The notes below the pieces were generated by a model. That model was not told the origin of the DNA and did no database searches. It worked only from the letters and a program-made list of their open reading frames with translations. Of a DNA stretch of 46,952 nt, positions 9,398 to 20,154 are shown one piece after another. Location: NCBI GenBank assembly GCA_018710845.1, contig DVJB01000025.1:1-46952 (forward strand). The letters run 5' to 3'. The translations under genes and the position numbers were made by a program. The stretch comes from Candidatus Onthomonas avicola. Its GTDB lineage: Bacteria; Bacillota; Clostridia; Oscillospirales; Oscillospiraceae. Numbering within the stretch: the first letter of the stretch is position 1; each line of letters begins with the position of its first letter.

Positions 9398-10189
9398 TCA
9401 GCGGCAGCGGATGATCTTAGCAGGGCACTTCTCTGCGCATTTGCCGCAGCCGGTGCACTTGCTGTAGTCGATATGGGCGATATTGTTGGCGATGGTAATC
9501 GCGCCCGCCTCACACTGGCGCGCACACAGGCCGCAGGCCAGACAACCGGCGTCGCACAGCTTACGGACAATCGCACCCTTCTCCGTGTTGCTGCACTGGA
9601 CCGCGTATACGCTGCGGTCGGGCAGGATCTCAATCAGGTGCTGCGGGCAGGCCTCGACGCACTTGCCGCAGGCGACGCATTTGGAGCGGTCCACGACCGC
9701 CACGCCGTCAACGACATGGATGGCGTCAAACTGGCAGGCGGCGACACAGCTGCCATAACCGAGGCAGCCCTGCTGGCAGGCCCTGATCCCCTTGCCGGTC
9801 AGGGTAGCGGCCGCCTGGCAGTCCTGAATGCCGATGTAGTTGCACTTGACCTTCATCTTGTCGCAGGTGCCGGCGCACTTGACAAAGGCCACCCGCTTCT
9901 CCAGCGCCGCCGCAGAGACGCCCATGACGGCGGAGACCTTCTCCGCCACGGGGGCGCCACCCACCGGACAGCCGTTGACCGGGGCCTCTCCCTTGGCAAT
10001 GGCGGCCGCCATCGCATCACAGCCGGCATAGCCGCAGGCGCCGCAGTTATTGCCCGGAAGGCACTCGCGCACAGCGGCCTCCTTCTCATCCACTTCCACT
10101 TCGAACTTCTCGCTGGCAAAGACCAGCATCAGGCCGACCAGCAGGCCGACGACCGCCACGACCACGGCGGTGGAGATGATCATGGTCAT
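9398..10189 (-). CDS. rnfB: RNF complex subunit RnfB (multi-cluster ferredoxin)
   Basis: The electron-input subunit of the membrane ferredoxin:NAD oxidoreductase. The 263-residue protein has an N-terminal membrane helix (about 5-25), a 4Fe-4S domain with NCGACGYAGCD and GCP (about 48-75), then several ferredoxin-type cluster motifs: CVACGKCVEACP, CLACGLCARQCE and CTGCGKCAEKCP, plus a further Cys-rich stretch (CLGYGSCVAAC). That count agrees with the many-cluster RnfB of Clostridia and Acetobacterium. It is the last gene of the operon, 17 bases after rnfA, and is followed by a strong terminator. Confidence 0.95.
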   Translation of the reverse strand: MTMIISTAVVVAVVGLLVGLMLVFASEKFEVEVDEKEAAVRECLPGNNCGACGYAGCDAMAAAIAKGEAPVNGCPVGGAPVAEKVSAVMGVSAAALEKRVAFVKCAGTCDKMKVKCNYIGIQDCQAAATLTGKGIRACQQGCLGYGSCVAACQFDAIHVVDGVAVVDRSKCVACGKCVEACPQHLIEILPDRSVYAVQCSNTEKGAIVRKLCDAGCLACGLCARQCEAGAITIANNIAHIDYSKCTGCGKCAEKCPAKIIRCR

Positions 10190-10206
10190 TCTCTCTTCCC
10201 CCTCCC

Positions 10207-10782
10207 TTATGCCAGGCCGCTGAAGCCGTAGAACGCGATGGCCATCAGCGCGGCGCTGAGCAGGACGATGGGGGCACCGCGGAAGGGCGCAGGCACTTCG
10301 CTCTCCTCGATCCGCTCACGGATGCCGGCCAGCAGGACGATGGCAATGGTATAGCCCACCGCGGTGCCCAGTCCGGCCAGGACGCTCTCGATGAAATTGT
10401 AGCCGTTGGTGACGTTGGTCAGCGCCACGCCGAGCACGGCGCAGTTGGTGGTGATCAGCGGCAGATAGATGCCCAGCGCGTTATACAGGCCGGGCGAGGT
10501 CTTCTTCAGGAACATCTCCACCACCTGCACGAGGGCGGCGATGACCAGGATGAAGACGATGGTCTGCAGGTAGGACAGCCCCAGCGGATCGAGCACAAAA
10601 TCATAGAGCAGGTTTGCGACCGCGGAGGCGATGGTGATGACGAAGATCACCGCGGCGCCCAGGCTGGCAGAGGTCTTGATCTGCTTGGAGACGCCCAAGA
10701 AGGAGCACAGCCCGAGGAACTGGCTGAGCACCACGTTATTGATCAGGGCGGCTCCGATCACGATCATGATAAGCGATGTCAT
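10207..10782 (-). CDS. rnfA: RNF complex membrane subunit RnfA
   Basis: 191 residues, six predicted membrane helices and the highly conserved start NNVVLSQFLGLCSFLGVSK. RnfA and RnfE are homologous, inversely oriented subunits that in known structures coordinate a shared iron-sulfur centre in the membrane; the Cys in LGLCSFLG and the Cys in TTNCAVLG are the expected ligands. The ATG overlaps the rnfE stop by four bases (ATGA), so the two are translationally coupled. Confidence 0.96.
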   Translation of the reverse strand: MTSLIMIVIGAALINNVVLSQFLGLCSFLGVSKQIKTSASLGAAVIFVITIASAVANLLYDFVLDPLGLSYLQTIVFILVIAALVQVVEMFLKKTSPGLYNALGIYLPLITTNCAVLGVALTNVTNGYNFIESVLAGLGTAVGYTIAIVLLAGIRERIEESEVPAPFRGAPIVLLSAALMAIAFYGFSGLA

Positions 10783-11462
10783 GCCTTACCCTCCTTTTTC
10801 CCGCAGTTCTCCGAGGCCTGCGCGCAGTTGGCGCAGCAGCCGTCGCAGCCCTCCACCTTGCGGTTGGCGGCGGTGGAGATGCTCGCGCCGTTCATCACGG
10901 CGACAATGATCGCCAGCACCAGGAAGGCGCCGGGGGCGTTTACCAGGATGCTGATGGGCTGGTAAAACTCCGGCATCACCTGCACGCCAAAGGCGGTGCC
11001 CGCTCCGAAGAGCTCGCGGACCAGGCCGATCAGCGTCAGCGCAAAGGTGAAGCCGAGGCCCATGCCGATGCCGTCAAAGACGGAGAGCAGCGGCGGGTTC
11101 TTGGAGGCGTAGGCCTCCGCGCGGCCGAGGATGATGCAGTTGACCACGATCAGCGGGATGTAAATACCCAGTGCCGCGTCCAGGAAGGGGACGTAGGCCT
11201 GGATGAGCAGCTGCACCACGGTGACAAGAGAGGCGACAATGACGATATAGGCCGGCAGGCGCACCTGGTCGGGAATCAGCTTGCGCACGGCGGAGATGAC
11301 CAGATTGCTCATCACCAGCACCACCAGCGTGGAGATGCCCATGCCAAAGCCATTGGTCGCAGACGTGGTGACCGCGAGGGTGGGGCAGATGCCCAGCATC
11401 ATGATGAAGATGGGGTTCTCCTTCACGATGCCGTTATAAATTCGTTCCATGTTTTGATTCAT
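10779..11462 (-). CDS. rnfE: RNF complex membrane subunit RnfE with Cys-rich tail
   Basis: 227 residues, six membrane helices, with the RnfE hallmarks NPIFIMMLGICPTLAVTTS and PLIVVNCIILGRAEAYASK that mirror RnfA. The C-terminus extends past the last helix into NRKVEGCDGCCANCAQASENCGKK, a short tail with five cysteines that could bind metal; such tails are not part of the core fold. I start at the ATG at 11462 behind GAGGAGGGG; an ATG six codons earlier overlaps that site. It lies 14 bases after rnfD-rnfG and overlaps rnfA by four bases. Confidence 0.93.
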   Translation of the reverse strand: MNQNMERIYNGIVKENPIFIMMLGICPTLAVTTSATNGFGMGISTLVVLVMSNLVISAVRKLIPDQVRLPAYIVIVASLVTVVQLLIQAYVPFLDAALGIYIPLIVVNCIILGRAEAYASKNPPLLSVFDGIGMGLGFTFALTLIGLVRELFGAGTAFGVQVMPEFYQPISILVNAPGAFLVLAIIVAVMNGASISTAANRKVEGCDGCCANCAQASENCGKKEGKA

Positions 11463-11476
11463 CGTCTCACCCCTCC

Positions 11477-13021
11477 TCACGAAATCTGGTTGGCGTAGAA
11501 GTCCAGGGCTGCGTTGACCGCGTTGACCACAGCGGCAGAGGTGACGGTCGCACCGGAGATCCCGTCAATCTCGTTCTCCGCCGTCGAGCCGCCGCCGGGA
11601 ACCAGGGTGAACGAGTCGGTCTGCACGCCGGTGAATTGGCCCTTGAACTCGTCCTCATCGGCGCGCATGCCCATACCCGCCGTCTCGTGGAGCTCGGTGA
11701 AGGAGATGCCCTGTACCACGCCGTCGGAGGAAATACCCACGGAGAGCGTGATGGTCCCGTCATAGCCGTCGCCAGAGGTGACGCTGATGGCATAGCCCGC
11801 CACATTTCCTCCGGAATCCTGTCCAACTACCACCTCATTGATGGTGATATTGCCGTAGGCCCCGTCACCGTATCCGGTCTCGGCATAGGACTCCACCACA
11901 CCGGAGAGGGTGTCGTCATAGGAGAACTCCTCTGCCTCGGGCAGGACAGCGGCGTAGGAGGCAGCGCTCTCCTCCAGGGCACGCTGGGCAATGGTGTCCG
12001 CCGTCAGGGCGTTTACGCCGCCGAGGGCGATGCCGGCAATCAGCGTGATGACCGTGAGGATGACCGCCGCTTTGGGCACCTTGGGCTTGGGCTTCTTGGC
12101 GTTGTCCCCCAGACCGAAGGGCGCGGGGACGGAGATCCTGTCGATCAGCGGCACCACGAGGTTGCCGAGGATAATGGCATAGCTCACGCTGTCCGCAGCG
12201 CTTCCGTAAACGCGGAAGATCGCAGAGAGCAGGCCGACTACAACGCCGTAGATCACTTGTCCGCGTCCGGTGATCGGGCTGGTGACGGGATCGGTCGCCA
12301 TGAAAAACGCGCCCATGATCACGCCGCCGCCGCACAGATGCGCCAGCAGGAAGAGCGGGTCGAGCCCCTGACCGCCGAGGTAAGCCATCGCGGCGCAGAA
12401 GCTGAGGAGATAGGCCAGCGGGATATGGAAGGTGATGCCGCCGGTGATCAGCAGGTAGATGCCGCCGATGAGCAGCGCGGCGATGCTCACGCCGATCGTG
12501 CCGTTGGTGAAGCCGAGGAACATCTCCAGGATGTCCACCGTGCCGCCGTCACGCAGGACAGCCAGCGGGGTGGCGCTGGAGACGCCGTCCACCGAGAAGC
12601 TGGTCATCGCCGAGCCAAACGAGATCAACAGGAAGCACCGTCCGGCCAGCGCGGGGTTCATGAAATTATGTCCCAGCCCGCCGAAGAGGCACTTGGCCAC
12701 CAGCACGGCAAAGAGGCTGCCGAGATAGGGGATGTAGAGCGGTACCGTGGGCGACAGGCACAGGCCAAGCAGCAATCCGGTGACGATCGCCGAACCGTCA
12801 CGCAGGGTGTTGGGGCGGTGCGTCAGATAGTCAAAGACGAACTCTGTAATCACCGCCGAGAGCACGCTGACAGCCAGCACCAGAAAGGCGTGGAGTCCGA
12901 AGTGATAGACGCCGAAGAAGGTCGCCGGCATCAGGGCCAGGATGACGTCGTACATCACCTGACCGGTGGTCAATCTGCTCCTCACATGGGGAGAGGAGGA
13001 GACATTCAGCAATCCGTTCAT
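11477..13021 (-). CDS. rnfDG: RnfD-RnfG fusion protein
   Basis: A single 514-residue reading frame covers two subunits that are normally separate. Residues about 1-310 are RnfD: multiple membrane helices, LRDGSAIVTGLLLGLCLSP, and the motif DGVSSATPL (Thr about 151) where RnfD carries covalent FMN. A Lys/Pro linker (NAKKPKPKVPK) leads into one membrane helix and the extracytoplasmic RnfG FMN-binding domain, ending with DGISGATVTS (Thr about 492), the ApbE target. No stop or ribosome site interrupts the junction. The ATG at 13021 is chosen for its spacing from GGAGGGG; a GTG three codons earlier is too close. The order C-DG-E-A-B is otherwise the clostridial one. Confidence 0.93.
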   Translation of the reverse strand: MNGLLNVSSSPHVRSRLTTGQVMYDVILALMPATFFGVYHFGLHAFLVLAVSVLSAVITEFVFDYLTHRPNTLRDGSAIVTGLLLGLCLSPTVPLYIPYLGSLFAVLVAKCLFGGLGHNFMNPALAGRCFLLISFGSAMTSFSVDGVSSATPLAVLRDGGTVDILEMFLGFTNGTIGVSIAALLIGGIYLLITGGITFHIPLAYLLSFCAAMAYLGGQGLDPLFLLAHLCGGGVIMGAFFMATDPVTSPITGRGQVIYGVVVGLLSAIFRVYGSAADSVSYAIILGNLVVPLIDRISVPAPFGLGDNAKKPKPKVPKAAVILTVITLIAGIALGGVNALTADTIAQRALEESAASYAAVLPEAEEFSYDDTLSGVVESYAETGYGDGAYGNITINEVVVGQDSGGNVAGYAISVTSGDGYDGTITLSVGISSDGVVQGISFTELHETAGMGMRADEDEFKGQFTGVQTDSFTLVPGGGSTAENEIDGISGATVTSAAVVNAVNAALDFYANQIS

Positions 13022-13037
13022 GTATGCCACCCCTCCT

Positions 13038-14381
13038 TTACTTGCCTGCGGCTCTGGCCGCCGCCTGGTGGTTCAAAATTGTCTGCTTGGTCTGCTTAAA
13101 CAGCTGCATCAGCGGACGCTTGGCCGGGCAGATGAAGGTGCAGCTGCCGCAGGCGATGCAGTCCAGGCCGTGGAGCTTCTCATAGCGGTCAAAGTCGCCC
13201 CGCTGGGCCGCCGTCATCATCATCTGCGGCACCAGGCCCACCGGGCAGACCCGGGCGCACCGGCCGCAGCGGATGCAGGCGGTCATCTGGCGCTCGGCGG
13301 TCTCCACCTCGTCCTCCGTCATGCACAGCAGGGCGTTCTGCGCCTTGGCGATGGGCACTTCAAAGTCGGTGATGGCGATGCCCATCATCGGGCCGCCGAT
13401 GAGCACCTTCTTCGGCTGGCACTTCAGGCCGCCGGCCGCCTCAAGCAGCTCCTCGACCGAGGTGCCGATCCGCACCAGGAAGTTGCCGGGGCGGGCCACG
13501 GCGTCGCCGGTGACGGTAAAGCCCTTCTCCATCAGCGGCTCGTTGAGGCAGACCGCGCGGTAGATCGCCGCGAGGGTGGTCACGTTGTCCACAATGCAGC
13601 CGAGGTTGGCCGGCAGATCCTTGGAGGCCATCTTCCGGCCGGTGACCGCGTGGACCAGATTTCGCTCTCCGCCCTGCGGGAACTTGGTCTTCAGCGGCAT
13701 CACCCGCATCCGGCTGTCCCCGGCAATCTCGCGGGTCATGGCGGCGATTGCCTCCGGCTTATTGTCCTCAATGGCGATGACTGCGGTGGCATGCGGGAAG
13801 AGATGAAGCATGATCCGCAGTCCCTCGACCACCCAGCCGGGCTGCTCCTGCATCAGACGGTCATCGCAGGTGATATACGGCTCGCACTCGGCGCCGTTTG
13901 CAATGATGTAGTCAATCTCCTCCGGATTCTTGGGCTGGAGCTTGACGTGGGTGGGGAAACCCGCGCCGCCCAGGCCGACGACGCCGGCGGCCTTGACCCG
14001 GTCGATAATCTGCTCGCGGGAGAGCGTCTTGTAGTCTGTCTGCTCCCCAATCCCGGGCATGGTTTCAAACTGCCCGTCGTTGGCGATGACGATGCACTCA
14101 GCGATCACTCCCGCATCGGTAAAGCGGTGCTCAATGCCCTTGACGGTGCCGGAACAGGAGCTGATGATATGGGCGGAGATATACCCGTCGGCCTCGGCGA
14201 TGATCTGCCCGGCCAGGACACGGTCCCCCTTCTTCACCACAGGCACGGCGGGCTTGCCGATGTGCTGGGACAGGGGGAAGACCATGTCGCCCTTGGGCGT
14301 ATAGACCTGCATCGGGCTGTTCTTGCTCAGTTCCTTCCGGCCCTCAGGGTGCACGCCGCCCCGAAATGTCTGGACGCGCAT
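13038..14381 (-). CDS. rnfC: RNF complex NADH-binding subunit RnfC
   Basis: 447 residues. RnfC is the peripheral subunit that exchanges electrons with NAD(H). Visible parts are a biotinyl-lipoyl-like N-terminal domain (about 30-100), the NADH/FMN-binding region starting at GVVGLGGAGFPTHVKL, a SLBB-like segment, and two 4Fe-4S motifs near the C-terminus (CIRCGRCARVCPVG and CIACGSCTFICPAK). AAAGGAG precedes the ATG. It starts 31 bases after the exported reductase and ends 16 bases before rnfD-rnfG, inside one long transcript. Confidence 0.95.
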   Translation of the reverse strand: MRVQTFRGGVHPEGRKELSKNSPMQVYTPKGDMVFPLSQHIGKPAVPVVKKGDRVLAGQIIAEADGYISAHIISSCSGTVKGIEHRFTDAGVIAECIVIANDGQFETMPGIGEQTDYKTLSREQIIDRVKAAGVVGLGGAGFPTHVKLQPKNPEEIDYIIANGAECEPYITCDDRLMQEQPGWVVEGLRIMLHLFPHATAVIAIEDNKPEAIAAMTREIAGDSRMRVMPLKTKFPQGGERNLVHAVTGRKMASKDLPANLGCIVDNVTTLAAIYRAVCLNEPLMEKGFTVTGDAVARPGNFLVRIGTSVEELLEAAGGLKCQPKKVLIGGPMMGIAITDFEVPIAKAQNALLCMTEDEVETAERQMTACIRCGRCARVCPVGLVPQMMMTAAQRGDFDRYEKLHGLDCIACGSCTFICPAKRPLMQLFKQTKQTILNHQAAARAAGK

Positions 14382-14412
14382 AACGACTCCTTTCTTTGCT
14401 TCAGCCGTCCTC

Positions 14413-16461
14413 TCACAGGGCGGCGACGATCTTGGCGGCGCGGCGTCCGAAGGTCATCGTCCGTCCGCAGGCCAGGCCGGTGAACAGGTTGGGATAAGTG
14501 GTGGCGAAGAAACCGCCGGTGCAGTCGCCGGTGGCGTACAGGCCCTCGATGGCGGTGCCGTCGGCGCGGATGACCTGCATGTCAGTGTTGATCCGGCAGC
14601 CGTTGAGGGTAGTCAGATGCCAGGCGCCGGTGCGGATGCCGTAGAACGGGGCGGTGTCCACCGGGGTCATACGGTGGCGCTCCTTGCCGTAGTCCTCGTC
14701 CACGCCGGCGGCGCACAGCTCGTTGTACCGCTCGACGGTGGCCACGAAGTTGTCCGCCGGGATGTTCAGCTTTTCCGCCAGCTCCTCCAGGGTGTCGGCC
14801 ACCTGGAGATAGCCCTCGTCCACAAATTCTGTCATCAGCTGATTCCAGACATAATCAAAGCCCATATTGGACTCCGCCCCGTTCGGGAACGGGAACAGCC
14901 GGCAGCAGCCGACCTCGTCAAACTGCTCGGCGTACTGCTTGCTGTTGGCATCGAAGATATCGCAGTAGGTGTGGTTGGGCTGCATGTACATCGAGTGGAG
15001 CATGAACTCATACGGACCGGACTCGTTGCAGAAGCGCTTGCCGTTCAGGTTGACCTTCAGGAAGGGCTGCTCGCCGAACCAGAACCACTTGCCGTTGGTC
15101 TGATAACCCGCCGTCTCCGTGGGCAGGCAGGAGCAGCGGTTGAACATCATGGAGGCGTGGGTCGGGTCCATGGCCGCGCCCGCCCAGAGCATCGCCTTGA
15201 TGCCGGAGCCGTCGCAGGTGGAGCCCATCGGCACATTGATCTTCATCTCCATCGTCATCGGCTGCAGGGCGAGCATCATGTCAGTGTTGGTGGCATAGCC
15301 GCCGGTGCAGAGGATGACGCCCTTGGAGGCGTTGATGCGGATGTAGTGCTCGTCGTTCTGATCCTGAGCGATGATGCCGGTGACACGGCCGTTCTCGTCC
15401 TGCTCCAGCTTGACCAGGGCGGTGGAGAGCTTCCACTCCACACCCAGCTCATCGCAGTGGGCCTGGAAGGTGGAGTTGGTCGTCACGTCTTCGCCGGCAC
15501 TGTCCGTCTTATGGGGGCTGTGTCCGGTGGCATAGGCCTTGTCGCGACCGGGGTCGTCAAGATTGCCCACGCCGCCCTCAAGGGACATGTACCAGTCTCC
15601 GGTGGACTCCATCAGGTCGGTCAGCCAATCCACCATCTCGCCGGAGTTGTCCAGCCAGACCTTGATGAGGTCGGAGTCCACATAGCCGCTGCCGTAGCGG
15701 ACGATGTCCTGCAGGGCCTCTATCTTGTCAATCCGAAACTCCGGATACTCCTCAAAGGAGGCCTGCTGCAACCGGGAGTTGACCGCACCGATGTCCTCCC
15801 GGATGCCGGTCGGCTCCTCGCGCTTTTCCACCACGAGGACCTTCGCCCCCTCCTCGGCGGCGGTCATCGCGGTGATCCAGCCGCCTGTGCCGCAGCCGAC
15901 CACGAGCACCTCGGTCTCCAGCGTCTCGGTGATGTCGCTCTCGGCGATCTCAGGGGCAGTGCCCAGCCAATCCGCCGAGCCGGAAGCCTCCGCACTGTCG
16001 CTGCCGCCGACCGTGAACTCCGTGCCGGATGCCTGGGAGATACAGTCAGCTGCCGCGGTCTTGATCGCGTCACAGGTGACCGTCGCGCCGGAGACGCCGT
16101 CCACGTCACAGGTCTGGGCGCTGAGGATCAGCTCGCGCATCTGCTCGGCCGCCGCGCCGCCGATGTCTGGCGTCTCAACGGAGGCGTCGATCTGCACGTC
16201 GGTGATGCTGCTCTCGTCAAAGGTCATTGTGACCGTCACATCGCCGTTGATGCCGCGGGCGCTGGCGCTGTAGGTGCCCGGGGTATAGGTCAGGCCGGTC
16301 CCGGCCCCAGTCACAGCCTCCGTGCCGCCGGCCGCCGCGGAGTTTGCGGCATTCTGCGTGGAATACTCGCAGGCCTGCAGCACGCCGAGCGTCGCCACGC
16401 TCGCCGCGCCGGCTACAATGCCTTTGATAAAATTCCTGCGGCTGATTGAACCTTTTTCCAT
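14413..16461 (-). CDS. Tat-exported FMN/FAD lipoprotein reductase (flavocytochrome c family)
   Basis: 682 residues. The N-terminus has a twin-arginine motif (SRRNFIKG, 7-14), a hydrophobic stretch and a lipobox ending at Cys31 (GVLQAC), so the folded protein should be exported by Tat and lipid-anchored outside. Residues about 55-145 form an FMN-binding domain with DGVSGATVT (Thr127), the ApbE flavinylation site. An FAD_binding_2 reductase domain follows, with its dinucleotide motif VLVVGCGTGGW at about 185. The C-terminal FAD motif ATGDCTGGFFATTYPNL replaces the HGANRLGG-like stretch of true fumarate reductases, so the substrate is probably not simply fumarate. It lies between tatC and rnfC. 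Confidence 0.9.
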   Translation of the reverse strand: MEKGSISRRNFIKGIVAGAASVATLGVLQACEYSTQNAANSAAAGGTEAVTGAGTGLTYTPGTYSASARGINGDVTVTMTFDESSITDVQIDASVETPDIGGAAAEQMRELILSAQTCDVDGVSGATVTCDAIKTAAADCISQASGTEFTVGGSDSAEASGSADWLGTAPEIAESDITETLETEVLVVGCGTGGWITAMTAAEEGAKVLVVEKREEPTGIREDIGAVNSRLQQASFEEYPEFRIDKIEALQDIVRYGSGYVDSDLIKVWLDNSGEMVDWLTDLMESTGDWYMSLEGGVGNLDDPGRDKAYATGHSPHKTDSAGEDVTTNSTFQAHCDELGVEWKLSTALVKLEQDENGRVTGIIAQDQNDEHYIRINASKGVILCTGGYATNTDMMLALQPMTMEMKINVPMGSTCDGSGIKAMLWAGAAMDPTHASMMFNRCSCLPTETAGYQTNGKWFWFGEQPFLKVNLNGKRFCNESGPYEFMLHSMYMQPNHTYCDIFDANSKQYAEQFDEVGCCRLFPFPNGAESNMGFDYVWNQLMTEFVDEGYLQVADTLEELAEKLNIPADNFVATVERYNELCAAGVDEDYGKERHRMTPVDTAPFYGIRTGAWHLTTLNGCRINTDMQVIRADGTAIEGLYATGDCTGGFFATTYPNLFTGLACGRTMTFGRRAAKIVAAL

Positions 16462-16477
16462 ATGATTTCCTCCCTTT

Positions 16478-17245
16478 TTACTCCGATTGTACGGGTTCTT
16501 TCCTGCGCTTCGCCTTGAACGCCGCGCACATCCGGCTCAGCAGAACGCTCAGCTCATAGAGCACCAGCATCGGCACCGCCACCATGATCTGGGAGATCAC
16601 GTCCGGCGGGGTGATGACAGCGGCAACAAAAAAGATGACGACGATCATCACCTTGCGCGATTCGGCCAGCCACTCCGGCTTGAGGATCCCCAGCTGTGTC
16701 AGGAGCACGGAGATAACCGGCAGCTCAAAGACCACGCCGAAGATGACAAATACGGTGAGCAGAAAGCTGATATAGCTCTGCACGCTGATCGCCGCGGCAA
16801 TCTCCATACCCTCGCCAAGCGAGATAAAAAACTGGAGCATGAACGGTATGCTGATCCAATAGGCAAACAGCACGCCGAGACAAAAGCACAGCGCGCCGAA
16901 CACCATTGCCAACAAAAAAAACATCCGTTCCCGGCGCTTGAGGCCCGGGCTGCAGAAAGCGTAGAGATGGTACCCGATCATGGGCGTGCTGACCACCGCC
17001 GCACCGATGAGTGCGATAGAGAAGTAGACCAGCAGTAGTTCCTCCGGGGAGAGGTAGACAAACTGATACTGATACCGCTCGCCAATACGGGTGAGCAGCG
17101 TCACCAGCTGCTGGGCGTAGGCCAGGCAGGCGACGAAAGCCGCCACGAAAAAGAGGACGCACAGAATAATCCGATTGCGCAGCTCCTTCAAGTGCCCGGC
17201 CAGGCTCATCTCACCGTTCTGTGATGTCTGCTTATGCCTGGGCAT
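16478..17245 (-). CDS. tatC: Twin-arginine translocase subunit TatC
   Basis: 255 residues with six predicted membrane helices and TatC signatures: MSLAGHLKELRNRIILC at the N-terminus (the conserved H-LxELRxR that recognises twin-arginine signals), VYLSPEELLLVYF, SPGLKRRERMFFL and FGVVFELPVI. TatC is the receptor of the Tat pathway, which exports folded, cofactor-loaded proteins. I use the ATG at 17245, which overlaps the tatA stop by 14 bases; longer frames run across tatA. The next gene, 16 bases on, encodes a protein with a twin-arginine signal. Confidence 0.95.
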   Translation of the reverse strand: MPRHKQTSQNGEMSLAGHLKELRNRIILCVLFFVAAFVACLAYAQQLVTLLTRIGERYQYQFVYLSPEELLLVYFSIALIGAAVVSTPMIGYHLYAFCSPGLKRRERMFFLLAMVFGALCFCLGVLFAYWISIPFMLQFFISLGEGMEIAAAISVQSYISFLLTVFVIFGVVFELPVISVLLTQLGILKPEWLAESRKVMIVVIFFVAAVITPPDVISQIMVAVPMLVLYELSVLLSRMCAAFKAKRRKEPVQSE

Positions 17246-17414
17246 CTCCGGAATGATTCCCCTGATCGTTCTTGTCCGGGTCATCCCCCATGCCCTCGCG
17301 GAAATTACGGATGCTCTGGCCAAACATCTTTGTCAGCTTGGGGATCTGCGTGGGGCCAAAGATCACGATCACGATGAGCAGTACAATCAGCAGTTCCTGT
17401 ACTCCGACTTTCAT
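17232..17414 (-). CDS. tatA: Twin-arginine translocase pore subunit TatA
   Basis: A 60-residue TatA protein: a short periplasmic N-terminus, one membrane helix (VQELLIVLLIVIVIF), the hinge FGPTQIPKL, an amphipathic helix with FGQSIRNFREGM and an acidic tail. TatA polymerises around TatC to form the transient pore. It begins 1 base after the stop of the TatB-like gene and overlaps tatC, so the three subunits are tightly coupled. Confidence 0.93.
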   Translation of the reverse strand: MKVGVQELLIVLLIVIVIFGPTQIPKLTKMFGQSIRNFREGMGDDPDKNDQGNHSGDAQA

Positions 17415-17415
17415 T

Positions 17416-17928
17416 TCATCTCTCCTCCATTGTTATGTTTGTGGATGATTCAGGATCTATCTCCTTCCCGGACGCCGCGGGCGTCTCAGGAGCAGAGGCT
17501 GTCTCTTCCGGACAGGGCTCCCCATCCGGCGGCGCGGCCGGTTCCTCCGGCACGGCGGCCGTCTCTGACGGCACTGCGGCATCCGGCTGCGATGCCGCCG
17601 TCTTCTCCGGCGCGGGAGCCGCCTGGGCTGCGGCCGCCTTCTTCGGCTTGCCGATGCTGCGCAAGGAGGACTCCACCCCCCGGATATCGGAGCGTACGCC
17701 CTTCTCCAATTCCTGGAGCGGCTCTATCGCCTCACGCAGCGGGCGCTGCGCCTCGTCCAGCGGCACAACGACGTTCTCCTGAAAATCCTTGGTCAGGTCC
17801 TCCGAGGCCTTGCGGAATTCGCGCAGCGCCACACCCAGCTTCTTGGCATAGGTGGGCAGCTTGTCCGGCCCGATGACAATCAACGCCACCACAAACACGA
17901 CCACCAGTTCCATCAGTCCGATATTCAT
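17416..17928 (-). CDS. TatA/TatB-like translocase subunit with long Pro/Ala tail
   Basis: 170 residues. The N-terminus is a Tat hairpin: one helix (MELVVVFVVALIVI), GPDKLPTYAKKLG and an amphipathic helix KLGVALREFRKA, followed by a predicted coiled stretch (about 45-95) and a low-complexity Ala/Pro/Glu tail (about 100-165). The extra length is like TatB of Gram-negative bacteria, whereas most Firmicutes have only TatA and TatC. GPDKLP with a long helical extension favours a TatB role in substrate docking. It is the first gene of the operon; the ATG at 17928 follows GAGTGAG. TatA versus TatB cannot be decided here. Confidence 0.82.
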   Translation of the reverse strand: MNIGLMELVVVFVVALIVIGPDKLPTYAKKLGVALREFRKASEDLTKDFQENVVVPLDEAQRPLREAIEPLQELEKGVRSDIRGVESSLRSIGKPKKAAAAQAAPAPEKTAASQPDAAVPSETAAVPEEPAAPPDGEPCPEETASAPETPAASGKEIDPESSTNITMEER

Positions 17929-18031
17929 CTCACTCTGTTTCCTCCTGTCCCAGGATATCAACCGGGCCCGACCGCTCGTTCTGCATCCGGCGACGCGGCC
18001 GGCTGTCTTTCTCTGTTCAGATTTTTAAATG

Positions 18032-18060
18032 ATTATAGCGCAAAACCTTCCAAAATGGAA
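18032..18060 (-). promoter_or_regulatory. Promoter of the tat-reductase-rnf operon
   Basis: On the minus strand, a perfect TATAAT (18032-18037) with a weak -35 TTCCAT (18055-18060) at 17 bp. A 15-bp palindrome, CTTCCA-AAA-TGGAAG (18047-18061), covers the -35 region and is a candidate operator. No other promoter is visible between the nine genes down to rnfB. Confidence 0.65.
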
Positions 18061-18109
18061 GAGCATAATCCGCATTTTTTGTCATCTTCCCTCCAACTGC
18101 CGGAAAGGC

Positions 18110-18138
18110 TGGCAATTTTCCGTGAAATATGCTACACT
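18110..18138 (+). promoter_or_regulatory. Promoter of the NusG_II-Gx-apbE operon
   Basis: TGGCAA (18110-18115), a 17-bp spacer and TACACT (18133-18138), divergent from the tat-rnf promoter about 70 bp away. The two operons could share one regulator. Confidence 0.6.
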
Positions 18139-18174
18139 GTTGGACACAAACGCCACGGGGAGGAGAACGCTGCC

Positions 18175-18567
18175 ATGTCCCGCAAAGAGGAAAAACGGTT
18201 CCGGCGCGGAGATCTGCTGCTTCTGCTCTTTTTCGGGCTGACCGCGCTGGTGCTGGCCGCGCTGACCTGGGCGCTGCGCGGGCCGGGGCAGCAGGTTGTC
18301 GTCCGGGTGGACGGGACAGTCACCGCCTCTTTCCCGCTGTCAGAGGACCGAACCTACCGCATTGAGACGGCGGACGGAGGGGAGAACCTGCTGGTGATCG
18401 AGGACGGGACGGCCCGCCTGACGGAGGCGAACTGCCCGGACCGGCTGTGCGTGAATCAGGGGGCCATCCGCTGGGCCGGGGACAGCATCATCTGCCTGCC
18501 GCACGGGGTCATCATTGAGATTACCGGCCAGCCGGACGAGCTGGATCTGGACGCGGTGGCCGGCTGA
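18175..18567 (+). CDS. NusG_II domain membrane-anchored protein
   Basis: 130 residues. Basic N-terminus (MSRKEEKRFRRGD), one membrane helix (about 13-34) and an extracytoplasmic NusG domain II fold: VVVRVDGTVTASFPLSEDRTY, then NCPDRLCVNQGAI and SIICLPHGVIIEI. The Cys residues in CPDRLC and ICLPHG are typical of the family. These proteins repeatedly occur beside ApbE and FMN-binding proteins in extracytosolic electron-transfer loci (from memory); their role is not established. AGGAG precedes the ATG. It starts an operon with the Gx protein (14 bases on) and apbE. Confidence 0.85.
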   Translation: MSRKEEKRFRRGDLLLLLFFGLTALVLAALTWALRGPGQQVVVRVDGTVTASFPLSEDRTYRIETADGGENLLVIEDGTARLTEANCPDRLCVNQGAIRWAGDSIICLPHGVIIEITGQPDELDLDAVAG

Positions 18568-18581
18568 GAGGAGAGAGGGAG

Positions 18582-19091
18582 ATGAAGGCCCGAACGATCG
18601 CCCGGTACGGGCTGCTCGTCGCGCTGGCGCTGGTGCTGAGCTATCTGGAATCGCTGATTCCCGCTTTTTTCGCCATACCCGGGATGAAGTTGGGGCTGAC
18701 CAACCTGGTGGTGCTGCTCGCGCTCTACCGGATGGGCGGCGCTCCGGCCATGCTCATCAACCTGGTGCGTATCGCGCTTGTCTCGATGCTGTTCGGCAAC
18801 GCCCTCTCTCTGCTCTTCTCGCTCGCAGGTGGGCTGCTGTCCGGTGCGGTGATGATCTTGCTCAAGCGCAGTGGGCGCTTCTCCATGCTGGGCGTGAGCA
18901 TGGCCGGAGGGGTGGCACACAATGCAGGCCAGATCCTGATGGCCATGCTGGTGCTTGAGACGTGGCAGGTGGTCTCCTACCTGCTGGTGCTCTGGCTGAC
19001 CGGTCTGGCCGCCGGGCTGGCCATCGGCTTGATCTGTTATGAGGTGATGCGCCGCCTGCCGGAGCGGCTGTTTACCGAGGGAGGGACCTGA
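18582..19091 (+). CDS. Gx transporter family membrane protein (Hpre_diP_synt_I-like)
   Basis: 169 residues with about five membrane helices and the motif IPGMKLGLTNLVVLLALYRMG, which defines the family once annotated as heptaprenyl diphosphate synthase component I and now as Gx transporter. The shape resembles the substrate-binding S components of ECF vitamin transporters, and family members often accompany flavin-based electron-transfer genes, so a flavin or quinone precursor is a possible substrate; that is inference. It lies between the NusG_II gene and apbE, 1 base from the latter. Confidence 0.82.
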   Translation: MKARTIARYGLLVALALVLSYLESLIPAFFAIPGMKLGLTNLVVLLALYRMGGAPAMLINLVRIALVSMLFGNALSLLFSLAGGLLSGAVMILLKRSGRFSMLGVSMAGGVAHNAGQILMAMLVLETWQVVSYLLVLWLTGLAAGLAIGLICYEVMRRLPERLFTEGGT

Positions 19092-19092
19092 A

Positions 19093-20154
19093 ATGCGCCG
19101 GACGCATTTTCCCCTGCTGGCCGGGCTGCTGGCCGGGCTGCTGCTGCTGGGCGGCTGCGACTACGCGGCGACGGGCGCGCCGCAGGACCCGGAGGCCTCT
19201 GTCTCCAGTGAGCGGTATCTGGAGAGTATGGACACCATCATGGTTCTGACCGCGTACGGCTCAGCGCGGGAGGAGGCGCTGGATGCCGCGGAGGCGGAGA
19301 TCCTCCGCCTGGATGCCCTGCTGAGCACGGGTGACCCGGACAGCGAGGTCTCCGCTATCAACCGCGACGGCGGCGGCGTGCTCTCGCCGGACACGCTCGA
19401 GCTGGTCTCCAGCTCGCTGGAACTCTATGAGGAGACGGGCGGGGCATTTGATATCACCGTCTATCCGCTCATGATGCTCTGGGGCTTTGACGACGAGAAC
19501 TACCATGTCCCCACCCAGGAGGAGCTGACGCAGACGCTGGATGTGGTCGGCTCGGACCGGCTCGCGCTGGACGGGGAGACCGGCCGGCTCACGCTGGGCG
19601 AGGGGCAGGCCATCGACCTGGGCGGTATCGCCAAAGGTTACACCTCGCAGCGGGTGATGGAGCTCTACCGGGCCGCCGGCGTCACCTCCGGCATGGTCTC
19701 GCTGGGCGGGAACATCCAGTGCCTCGGCACACGGCCGGATGGGACCCCCTGGCGCATCGGCATTCAGGACCCCTGGAGCGTCGAGGGCACCATCGCGGCG
19801 GTCATTGAGGTGGTCGATCAGGCCGTCATCACCTCCGGCGGCTATGAGCGCTACTTCGTGGACGAGGAGACCGGAGTCACCTATCAGCATATCCTTGACC
19901 CGGCCACCGGCTATCCGGCCGACAGCGGCCTGGCCTCCGTGACCATCGTCTCGGAGGATGGCACGCTGGCCGACGGCCTGTCCACCTCCCTCTATCTGCT
20001 CGGCCTGGAGGGGAGCACGGATTACTGGCGCGCGCACAGTGAACAGTTCGAGGCGCTGCTGATCGACGAGGCAGGTGCCATCTATGTCACGGAAGGCCTC
20101 GCGGACTCCGTCACCGCTGAGGACGGTTTTACCGTTCTTACACGGCAGCCCTGA
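19093..20154 (+). CDS. apbE: FAD:protein FMN transferase ApbE (lipoprotein)
   Basis: Transfers FMN from FAD to a Thr or Ser in exported flavoproteins. The 353-residue protein starts with a lipoprotein signal ending at Cys22 (LLLLGGC), so it acts outside the membrane. Family motifs are MDTIMVLTAYG, GGAFDITVYPLMMLWGF, AIDLGGIAKGYTSQRV, SLGGNIQCLG, TSGGYERYFV and HILDPATGYPADSGLASVTIV, including the Mg-binding region near the C-terminus (DGTLADGLSTSLYLLG). Its targets are visible next door: the DGxSGATVT motifs of the Tat-exported reductase and RnfG, and SSATPL in RnfD. A terminator follows. Confidence 0.96.
   Translation: MRRTHFPLLAGLLAGLLLLGGCDYAATGAPQDPEASVSSERYLESMDTIMVLTAYGSAREEALDAAEAEILRLDALLSTGDPDSEVSAINRDGGGVLSPDTLELVSSSLELYEETGGAFDITVYPLMMLWGFDDENYHVPTQEELTQTLDVVGSDRLALDGETGRLTLGEGQAIDLGGIAKGYTSQRVMELYRAAGVTSGMVSLGGNIQCLGTRPDGTPWRIGIQDPWSVEGTIAAVIEVVDQAVITSGGYERYFVDEETGVTYQHILDPATGYPADSGLASVTIVSEDGTLADGLSTSLYLLGLEGSTDYWRAHSEQFEALLIDEAGAIYVTEGLADSVTAEDGFTVLTRQP

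Follow-up and report, generated by a model that had tools for sequence, protein, structure and literature searches.

A conserved gene unit joining a Tat translocase, a predicted exported flavin reductase and a D-G-fused RNF complex in Candidatus Onthomonas avicola and other Clostridia

We analysed a stretch of 46,952 nucleotides from Candidatus Onthomonas avicola (Oscillospiraceae; assembly GCA_018710845.1, contig DVJB01000025.1), here called the window; it makes up all of contig C5, one of the 72 contigs of a 2.39 Mb genome whose completeness is given as 100%. The window carries a locus that joins genes of the twin-arginine translocation (Tat) system, a gene for a predicted exported flavin reductase (RED) and the genes of an RNF complex. 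On the minus strand the order is tatB-like, tatA, tatC, RED, rnfC, rnfDG, rnfE, rnfA and rnfB, and on the plus strand a divergent group holds a NusG_II gene, a PF07456 gene and apbE; all of them are open reading frames at the positions given below. Pfam cut-offs were passed by TatC, two TatA_B_E proteins, RED (FMN_bind and FAD_binding_2), RnfC_N, NQR2_RnfD_RnfE, two Rnf-Nqr proteins, FeS/Fer4, NusG_II, PF07456 and ApbE. The initial annotation of this DNA, made from the letters alone, had described the tat genes followed by a Tat-signal FMN_bind/FAD reductase with an SGAT site, and a divergent operon with NusG_II, Gx and ApbE; the reading frames and Pfam matches, together with a PF10518 signal match in RED, bear out both descriptions.

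The tatB-like gene (17416..17928, minus strand) encodes a TatA_B_E family protein; its reading frame is listed to 17961, and the ATG at 17928 is probably the start, because AGGAGG lies ahead of it. It is followed by tatA (17232..17414, 60 amino acids (aa), TatA_B_E) and tatC (16478..17245), whose reading frame is listed to 17323 and which presumably starts at 17245. TatC scored 206.1 bits with PF00902 and 190.9 bits with TIGR00945 (cut-off 132.7). The two small proteins passed the Pfam cut-off and fell slightly under those of NCBIfam (52.7 against 56.5 for TIGR01410; 51.0 against 53.9 for TIGR01411), and 'TatB-like' is a fair label for the first of them. From tatB to rnfB the genes overlap or sit at most 31 bases apart, which supports a single transcript. 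A sigma-70 scan found no minus-strand site from rnfB to tatB, in line with the earlier statement that there is no internal promoter, but this is weak support, as the scan was blank in the shared intergenic region too. It also returned five terminator-like sites on the minus strand, all within genes. The NusG_II gene may start at about 18175, so the gap between the two operons may be nearer 250 bases than 93. Guanine-plus-cytosine content does not point to recent import: it was 0.607-0.646 across the locus in 2-kb steps, against 0.495-0.650 for the window.

On the plus strand, the first gene of the divergent group (18055..18567) encodes a Pfam NusG_II protein, which we take to be EetA-like. The PF07456 ('Gx') gene (18582..19091) and apbE (19093..20154), which encodes an FAD:protein FMN transferase with a lipoprotein-type N-terminus as read by eye, lie side by side, as in a flavinylation module. 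PF07456 is the EetB family of FAD-export ECF-S subunits (PMC9973259). Flavinylation in Listeria requires EetB, which binds FAD; eetB lies near Rnf genes in 572 Clostridia genomes (PMC9973259).

RED (14413..16461, minus strand, 682 aa) combines a Tat signal with FMN_bind and FAD_binding_2. Residues 1-31 (16369..16461) hold the twin-arginine signal ISRRNFIKG, over the PF10518 cut-off, and a candidate lipobox, LQAC. The reductase had been called a lipoprotein; the lipobox is plausible but not conserved, such a Cys being present in only 19 of 75 readable relatives. The N-terminus carries RR in 73 of these 75 proteins and RK in two, and five more were unreadable. Residues 124-127 (16081..16092) form an SGAT motif, a candidate FMN attachment site, within an FMN_bind match spanning residues 70-141. 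RED shares two marks with flavinylated fumarate and urocanate reductases, namely FMN_bind with FAD_binding_2 and an [S/T]GA[S/T] site.

In the whole genome we found one TatC, that of the window. Scanning the genome with the Pfam Tat-signal model gave two proteins over the cut-off: RED itself and a second reductase on contig C31, absent from the initial annotation, which has a Tat signal and FMN_bind and is 35% identical to RED. The next two candidates scored 13.6 and 10.3 bits against a cut-off of 22.7. Three FMN_bind proteins are encoded in the genome: RnfDG, RED and the C31 reductase. These results support the view that the predicted Tat clients of this genome are only FMN_bind reductases; since the Pfam model can miss signals, 'only' holds at that threshold. 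Two findings that would have spoken against a dedicated Tat system, many unrelated substrates and a second Tat locus, were thus not seen in this genome. Frames with several FMN_bind matches were seen elsewhere in the genus (G001:C6, G012:C28, G019:C60, G026:C154 and G027:C69), and none of the window genome's three matches is of this kind.

Among 32 genomes of the genus, TatC passed the cut-off in 22, and these are exactly the genomes with Tat signals over the cut-off; the other 10 have none (Fisher p 1.6e-8, kinship ignored; eight of the 10 TatC-less genomes are given as at least 90% complete). Of 39 signals in all, 37 stand on RED or FMN_bind proteins: 35 lie in frame ahead of an FMN_bind match, with a stop in two of these frames (G026, G028), and two belong to RED pieces cut by a contig end. 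Four of the 35 lie off the locus (G001:C29, G019:C26, G025:C12 and G027:C5). The order tatC, one to three RED genes and rnfC was contiguous in 15 of the 22 TatC-bearing genomes (tatC itself is broken in G029), the contig ended inside the RED gene in four more (G014, G022, G025, G031), and the remaining three (G009, G010, G012) have their only tatC at another locus. At that other locus (L037, L039, L041) tatBAC follows a gene for a 4Fe-4S protein, which was confirmed with Pfam in L037 and looks alike in the others, and in L037 also one for a trigger-factor/FKBP-like protein. G009 and G012 lack tatC at their RNF locus and still have TatA/B-like genes there. TatC and RnfC occurred together in 21 genus genomes, neither in eight, TatC alone in one (G031, contig cut) and RnfC alone in two (p 3.6e-5).

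Outside the genus TatC is rare. Of 66 genomes, 28 from other genera of the family and 38 from the order, not one had TatC over the cut-off, although 60 have an RnfC_N match; in the class it passed in 15 of 393 genomes (own genome included; drawn at a completeness of at least 90%). A general co-location of tat and rnf across the class was rejected, as RnfC lay within 5 kb in only one of the 14 other TatC-bearing genomes (G324), at a molybdopterin-enzyme locus. There (L179), tat and rnfC/rnfD-like genes share a locus with a molybdopterin oxidoreductase gene, so that Tat and RNF-type parts accompany another kind of enzyme.

Relatives of RED were gathered by a profile scan of named genomes, and the best 80 of 144 loci were compared. 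By title, the hosts are mostly metagenome-assembled Oscillospiraceae, Ruminococcaceae, Lachnospiraceae and unclassified Clostridiales, many of them from herbivore guts by isolate name. tatC, RED and rnfC were contiguous on one strand in 31 of the 80 loci, 17 of these apparently outside the genus. The others comprised nine with tatC and RED but no rnfC, four with tat and rnf in a different order, three with tat in a different order and no rnf, four with RED and rnfC but no tatC in reach (two at contig starts), and 29 with RED alone. A gene order that recurs in so many genomes is more than chance, and the arrangement, whose lack of conservation would have counted against the earlier proposal, is conserved both in the genus and beyond it. 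These results support the conclusion that the genes of the locus form one conserved unit.

Several neighbours of RED at other loci were recorded. A MerR-type regulator gene lies divergent, 101-174 bases upstream of lone RED, in L140, L142, L151, L162 and L165; 11 tat-RED-rnf loci have a distant relative of it (28-31%) upstream of RED, on the minus strand, and none was found in the window's intergenic gap. In L152, L158, L161, L168 and L173, which are tat/RED loci without RNF, cytochrome c assembly genes of ResB and CcsA type follow RED downstream at 1.7-3.4 kb (Pfam-checked in L161). The RK form of the signal occurred in L141 and L144, in genomes where no TatC was found (p 0.004). As a mark of TatC loss this is suggestive, but the two signals are identical, so the change counts as one event, and three other TatC-less genomes keep RR.

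All six RNF subunits are encoded together. The earlier description had the set complete, which stands, and had missed that RnfD and RnfG form one fused protein of 517 aa. On the minus strand, rnfC (13038..14381), assigned by family match and motifs, keeps its glycine-rich site and two 4Fe-4S cysteine sets (CxxCxxCxxxCP). It is followed by rnfDG (11477..13030), with PF03116 at residues 10-306 and FMN_bind at 422-510. The motif DPVTSPIT at residues 247-254 (12269..12292) is a candidate RnfD flavin site, an assignment that we presume, and SGAT at residues 492-495 (11546..11557) is a candidate RnfG flavin site. rnfE (10779..11480) and rnfA (10207..10782) both match PF02508 and were told apart by gene order, and rnfB (9398..10189) passed the TIGR01944 cut-off.

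The fusion marks a separate RNF lineage. It was present in 34 of 34 RnfD reading frames of at least 450 aa at RED loci other than that of L147, whose RNF is split (three more were cut), and in 19 of 19 whole RnfD proteins of the genus (two cut), while RnfD and RnfG were split in six of six RNFs of relatives from other genera. In the RnfC tree, one branch (100/100, length 1.25) parts 25 RnfC from seven ordinary ones. On the side of the 25, 24 stand beside a whole fused RnfDG and one beside a cut one, and the Tat-less G016 and G024 are included; the ordinary side holds four RnfC from the window's family, two from its order and that of L147. The host tree, built on the ribosomal proteins L2, S19, S3 and L4 (30 genomes asked, six without a match and one partial match left out), sets a Lachnospiraceae side apart from an Oscillospiraceae side, with Tat-less genera lying among Tat-bearing ones. 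Against this tree, a starred RnfC group of 12 (96/88) mixes L175 and L178 from the Oscillospiraceae side with L106, L116, L134, L138 and L172 from the other side, and a starred group of four (96/88) puts L155 and L160 together with two members of the window's genus, G004 and G016; for some rows, L160 among them, the host tree gives no placement of their own. The TatC tree repeats the first mixture (98/98), and the branch joining 38 TatC of the genus and the RED loci is weak (85/71). The simplest reading of this mixing across families is transfer of the whole module, and the long branches call for caution.

Two types of RED occupy the slot between tatC and rnfC. Between the types, mean identity is 72-76% in the FMN domain and 32% in the catalytic domain; within a type, between genomes, it is 85 and 91% in the catalytic domain versus 80 and 86% in the FMN domain. 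Two catalytic domains thus share a single export-and-flavin cassette. FMN domains of the two types within one genome had at first seemed unusually similar, but gene conversion was rejected as an explanation, with same-genome FMN domains averaging 76% (nine pairs) versus 72% (167 pairs) and the two types separating in the FMN-domain tree (92/88, not starred); only the sharing of the cassette was retained.

The initial annotation had named fumarate and urocanate as candidate acceptors, and the simplest form of that idea is that RED is a plain fumarate or urocanate reductase. RED has the same two-domain plan, its best whole-protein PDB matches are flavocytochrome c fumarate reductases, and its best solved relatives also include urocanate reductase and 3-ketosteroid dehydrogenases. 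In UrdA, Arg560, Arg411 and His520 contact the carboxylate, are conserved in the Frd family and are essential for activity (PMC7921117). By sequence alignment, this Arg/His/Arg substrate and proton-donor site was not found in RED: the place of the proton-donor Arg (Arg402 in fumarate reductase, Arg411 in UrdA) is taken by Tyr484, in the motif NESGPY at residues 479-484 (15010..15027), and those of Arg560 and His520 by Leu659 and by Leu616 or Thr617. All four residues are invariant across 26 RED orthologues. His615 lies one position off the His520 column, and a shifted role for it is possible, as the alignment uses sequence alone. With the three residues replaced, the acceptor is probably neither fumarate nor urocanate; we regard a plain reductase of this kind as highly improbable, and cinnamate-type acids, also named before, as doubtful acceptors.

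NESGPY of RED aligns with NESLPY of 8jbz, a ketosteroid dehydrogenase. The stretch alone scores 2.1 bits, which is not significant, and it is collinear with a significant C-terminal stretch. RED falls far below curated ketosteroid dehydrogenase scores (155 versus 789 bits for NF009478; 142.3 versus 788 for NF005882). In ketosteroid dehydrogenase the Tyr is the postulated proton acceptor and FAD takes the other hydrogen (PMC8220720); by our numbering this proton-taking residue would be Tyr318. This tentative alignment points to an enone-like acceptor, which would be a non-carboxylate and perhaps a plant-derived aglycone. In L111-L114 and L124 the lone RED has a divergent alpha-L-rhamnosidase gene 106-291 bases upstream, adjoined by a GH2 glycosidase gene (RED start at 9.8-10.0 kb in L111-L114 and at 4960 in L124; rhamnosidase Pfam-checked in L112, the rest by similarity). 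These genes would fit a plant glycoside as the source; the five loci look alike and count as about one observation. The same Tyr motif also resembles that of an oxidising enzyme, and would thus suit a reverse flow in which RED is an outside dehydrogenase whose electrons RNF and the ion gradient use to reduce ferredoxin. We consider this improbable, since the characterised flavinylated FMN_bind/FAD enzymes named in PMC8238504 are reductases and such a flow would be unfavourable at gut redox potentials.

UbiA was not found in the window genome, nor in 31 of the 32 genus genomes (the exception, G018, has neither TatC nor RnfC), and lack of UbiA means no usual quinone synthesis. RNF is predicted to be the likeliest electron source of RED, on searches that covered FMN_bind and UbiA and did not include MsrQ, NapH, PepSY, DsbD or cytochromes. 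A step from the RnfG flavin to the RED flavin is suggested by co-location, by RnfDG being the sole FMN_bind protein besides the two reductases and by the lack of UbiA. In RNF, ferredoxin gives electrons to RnfB, from which they move by way of RnfA/E to the outside FMN of RnfG and on through RnfD to RnfC (PMC12174285). We propose that RED would fold around FAD in the cytosol and be exported folded through a Tat system kept for this enzyme class. Outside, ApbE would attach FMN to RED and also to RnfDG, in its RnfG half, using FAD supplied through the EetB-family protein. RnfB would receive electrons from reduced ferredoxin, and having crossed the membrane to the RnfG flavin they could either return through RnfD and RnfC to NAD+ or go to the RED flavin, and from there to an unsaturated acceptor outside, with no quinone needed. 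Because the window's RnfC retains its site motifs, a branching route is more probable than an exit in one direction only; of nine RnfC of the fused kind compared, two (G001, L137) depart from the glycine motif.

The same RnfC motifs also suit another explanation, that this is an ordinary ferredoxin:NAD+ RNF and that Tat and RED are a separate cassette inserted for co-expression, with RED served by another donor. Several observations favour it or weigh against RNF-fed respiration. With motifs intact, the complex may simply run to NAD+. RED stands alone in 29 of the 80 loci and with only tat nearby in 12, so RNF is not its sole possible partner, and quinones taken up from outside are a source that the lack of UbiA does not exclude. 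G016 keeps RNF and ApbE with TatC absent and RED reduced to a 131-aa remnant, and G024 keeps both with TatC absent and no RED at the locus, so RNF can persist without the export system; no over-cut-off Tat signal persists without TatC in the genus. Nor is Tat exclusive to reductases everywhere: the remaining two of the 39 signals, second ones in G009 and G012, stand on solute-binding-type proteins 73% identical to each other, that of G012 lying close to its second tat locus and scoring 25.5 bits with SBP_bac_1, just below the cut-off of 26. Where TatC was sought in 27 of the 29 lone-RED genomes, it passed the cut-off in 22 (in one of these only as a broken piece) and was not found in five, three of them with RR kept. 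Related genomes, moreover, are not independent, and some are incomplete. Elsewhere, in other families (L180, L181, L183, L194; genera g116 and g193), a related cassette combines Tat with an FAD reductase that has an RR signal, and RNF is missing; three of the four also encode a small protein that matches the FMN part of RED by BLAST. On the other side, within the donor search described above the genome has no other FMN_bind carrier and no UbiA, the RNF is a distinct D-G-fused clade found with Tat and RED in two families, and RnfC is also absent from eight of the 10 TatC-less genus genomes. We therefore judge an ordinary RNF beside a separate cassette to be rather unlikely.

Taken together, we think it probable that the locus is a self-contained, horizontally spread respiratory module in which Tat-exported RED is fed by RNF. 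The earlier proposal of RNF-driven respiration through the reductase is upheld in the unit itself, the Tat clients, the ApbE/EetB context and RNF as likeliest donor, but not in the fumarate and urocanate suggested as acceptors. A wider reading, held more tentatively and at somewhat short of even chances, is that of a mobile, quinone-free anaerobic respiration kit of gut Clostridia in at least two families, in which a distinct RnfDG-fused RNF lineage sends electrons of ferredoxin out to interchangeable reductase heads delivered by a Tat system that exists for them. If the module works as proposed, ferredoxin would drive respiration outside the cell directly through RNF without quinones, and fermentative gut bacteria would gain a larger energy yield per electron than from RNF to NAD+. 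The locus would be a marker for such bacteria and would explain why some Oscillospiraceae and Lachnospiraceae retain Tat while sampled relatives of the window's genus have none; the case of TatC gone, RED decayed and RNF kept would be a natural experiment on the purpose of Tat. Should the acceptor be, as it may, a plant-derived compound common in herbivore guts, the enzyme would matter for its conversion there.

Electron exit to another acceptor outside has likewise been proposed for multi-flavinylated RnfG (PMC8238504) and for the Methanosarcina Rnf with its multiheme cytochrome (PMC12174285). Unlike in those systems, the acceptor in the window would be a separate Tat-exported reductase from the same operon, and RnfD and RnfG are fused. 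Listeria fumarate reductase and Shewanella UrdA share with RED the FMN_bind plus FAD_binding_2 plan and the SGAT site (PMC8238504); unlike them, RED has its own Tat and RNF in the operon, and the carboxylate-binding Arg/His/Arg are replaced. The EetB/ApbE module beside Rnf in Clostridia has the same PF07456 and ApbE next to rnf (PMC9973259). The window adds Tat and a reductase to it, and that paper names twin-arginine export once, in its introduction, and sets out a division between Tat- and Sec-exported cofactor proteins. The joining of Tat, reductase and RNF had been put forward as undescribed, and no description of it turned up in titles, abstract openings and selected passages of open-licence papers on these subjects and on flavinylation (the main texts of PMC8238504, PMC11334425, PMC12174285 and PMC12052999 contain 'tat' 0 times), but the divergent module was already known beside Rnf (PMC9973259). 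3-Ketosteroid dehydrogenase (KstD) has NESxPY with a Tyr at the catalytic place, to which the RED motif may correspond; RED adds FMN_bind and a Tat signal, and the overall match is partial. Tat genes beside their client are known from Bacillus, where TatAdCd goes with PhoD. Gut respiratory reductases have reportedly been treated by Little et al. in 2024. In Thermacetogenium phaeum, tatC likewise adjoins its client, a Tat-signal formate dehydrogenase; that cluster adjoins quinone synthesis genes, whereas the client in the window is a flavin reductase linked to RNF, without quinone genes (PMC6895022). Each part of the locus is thus known from elsewhere, and the unit they form is best described as a predicted extracytosolic flavin respiration linked to RNF, in which Tat is dedicated, RnfD and RnfG are fused and no quinone route is evident.

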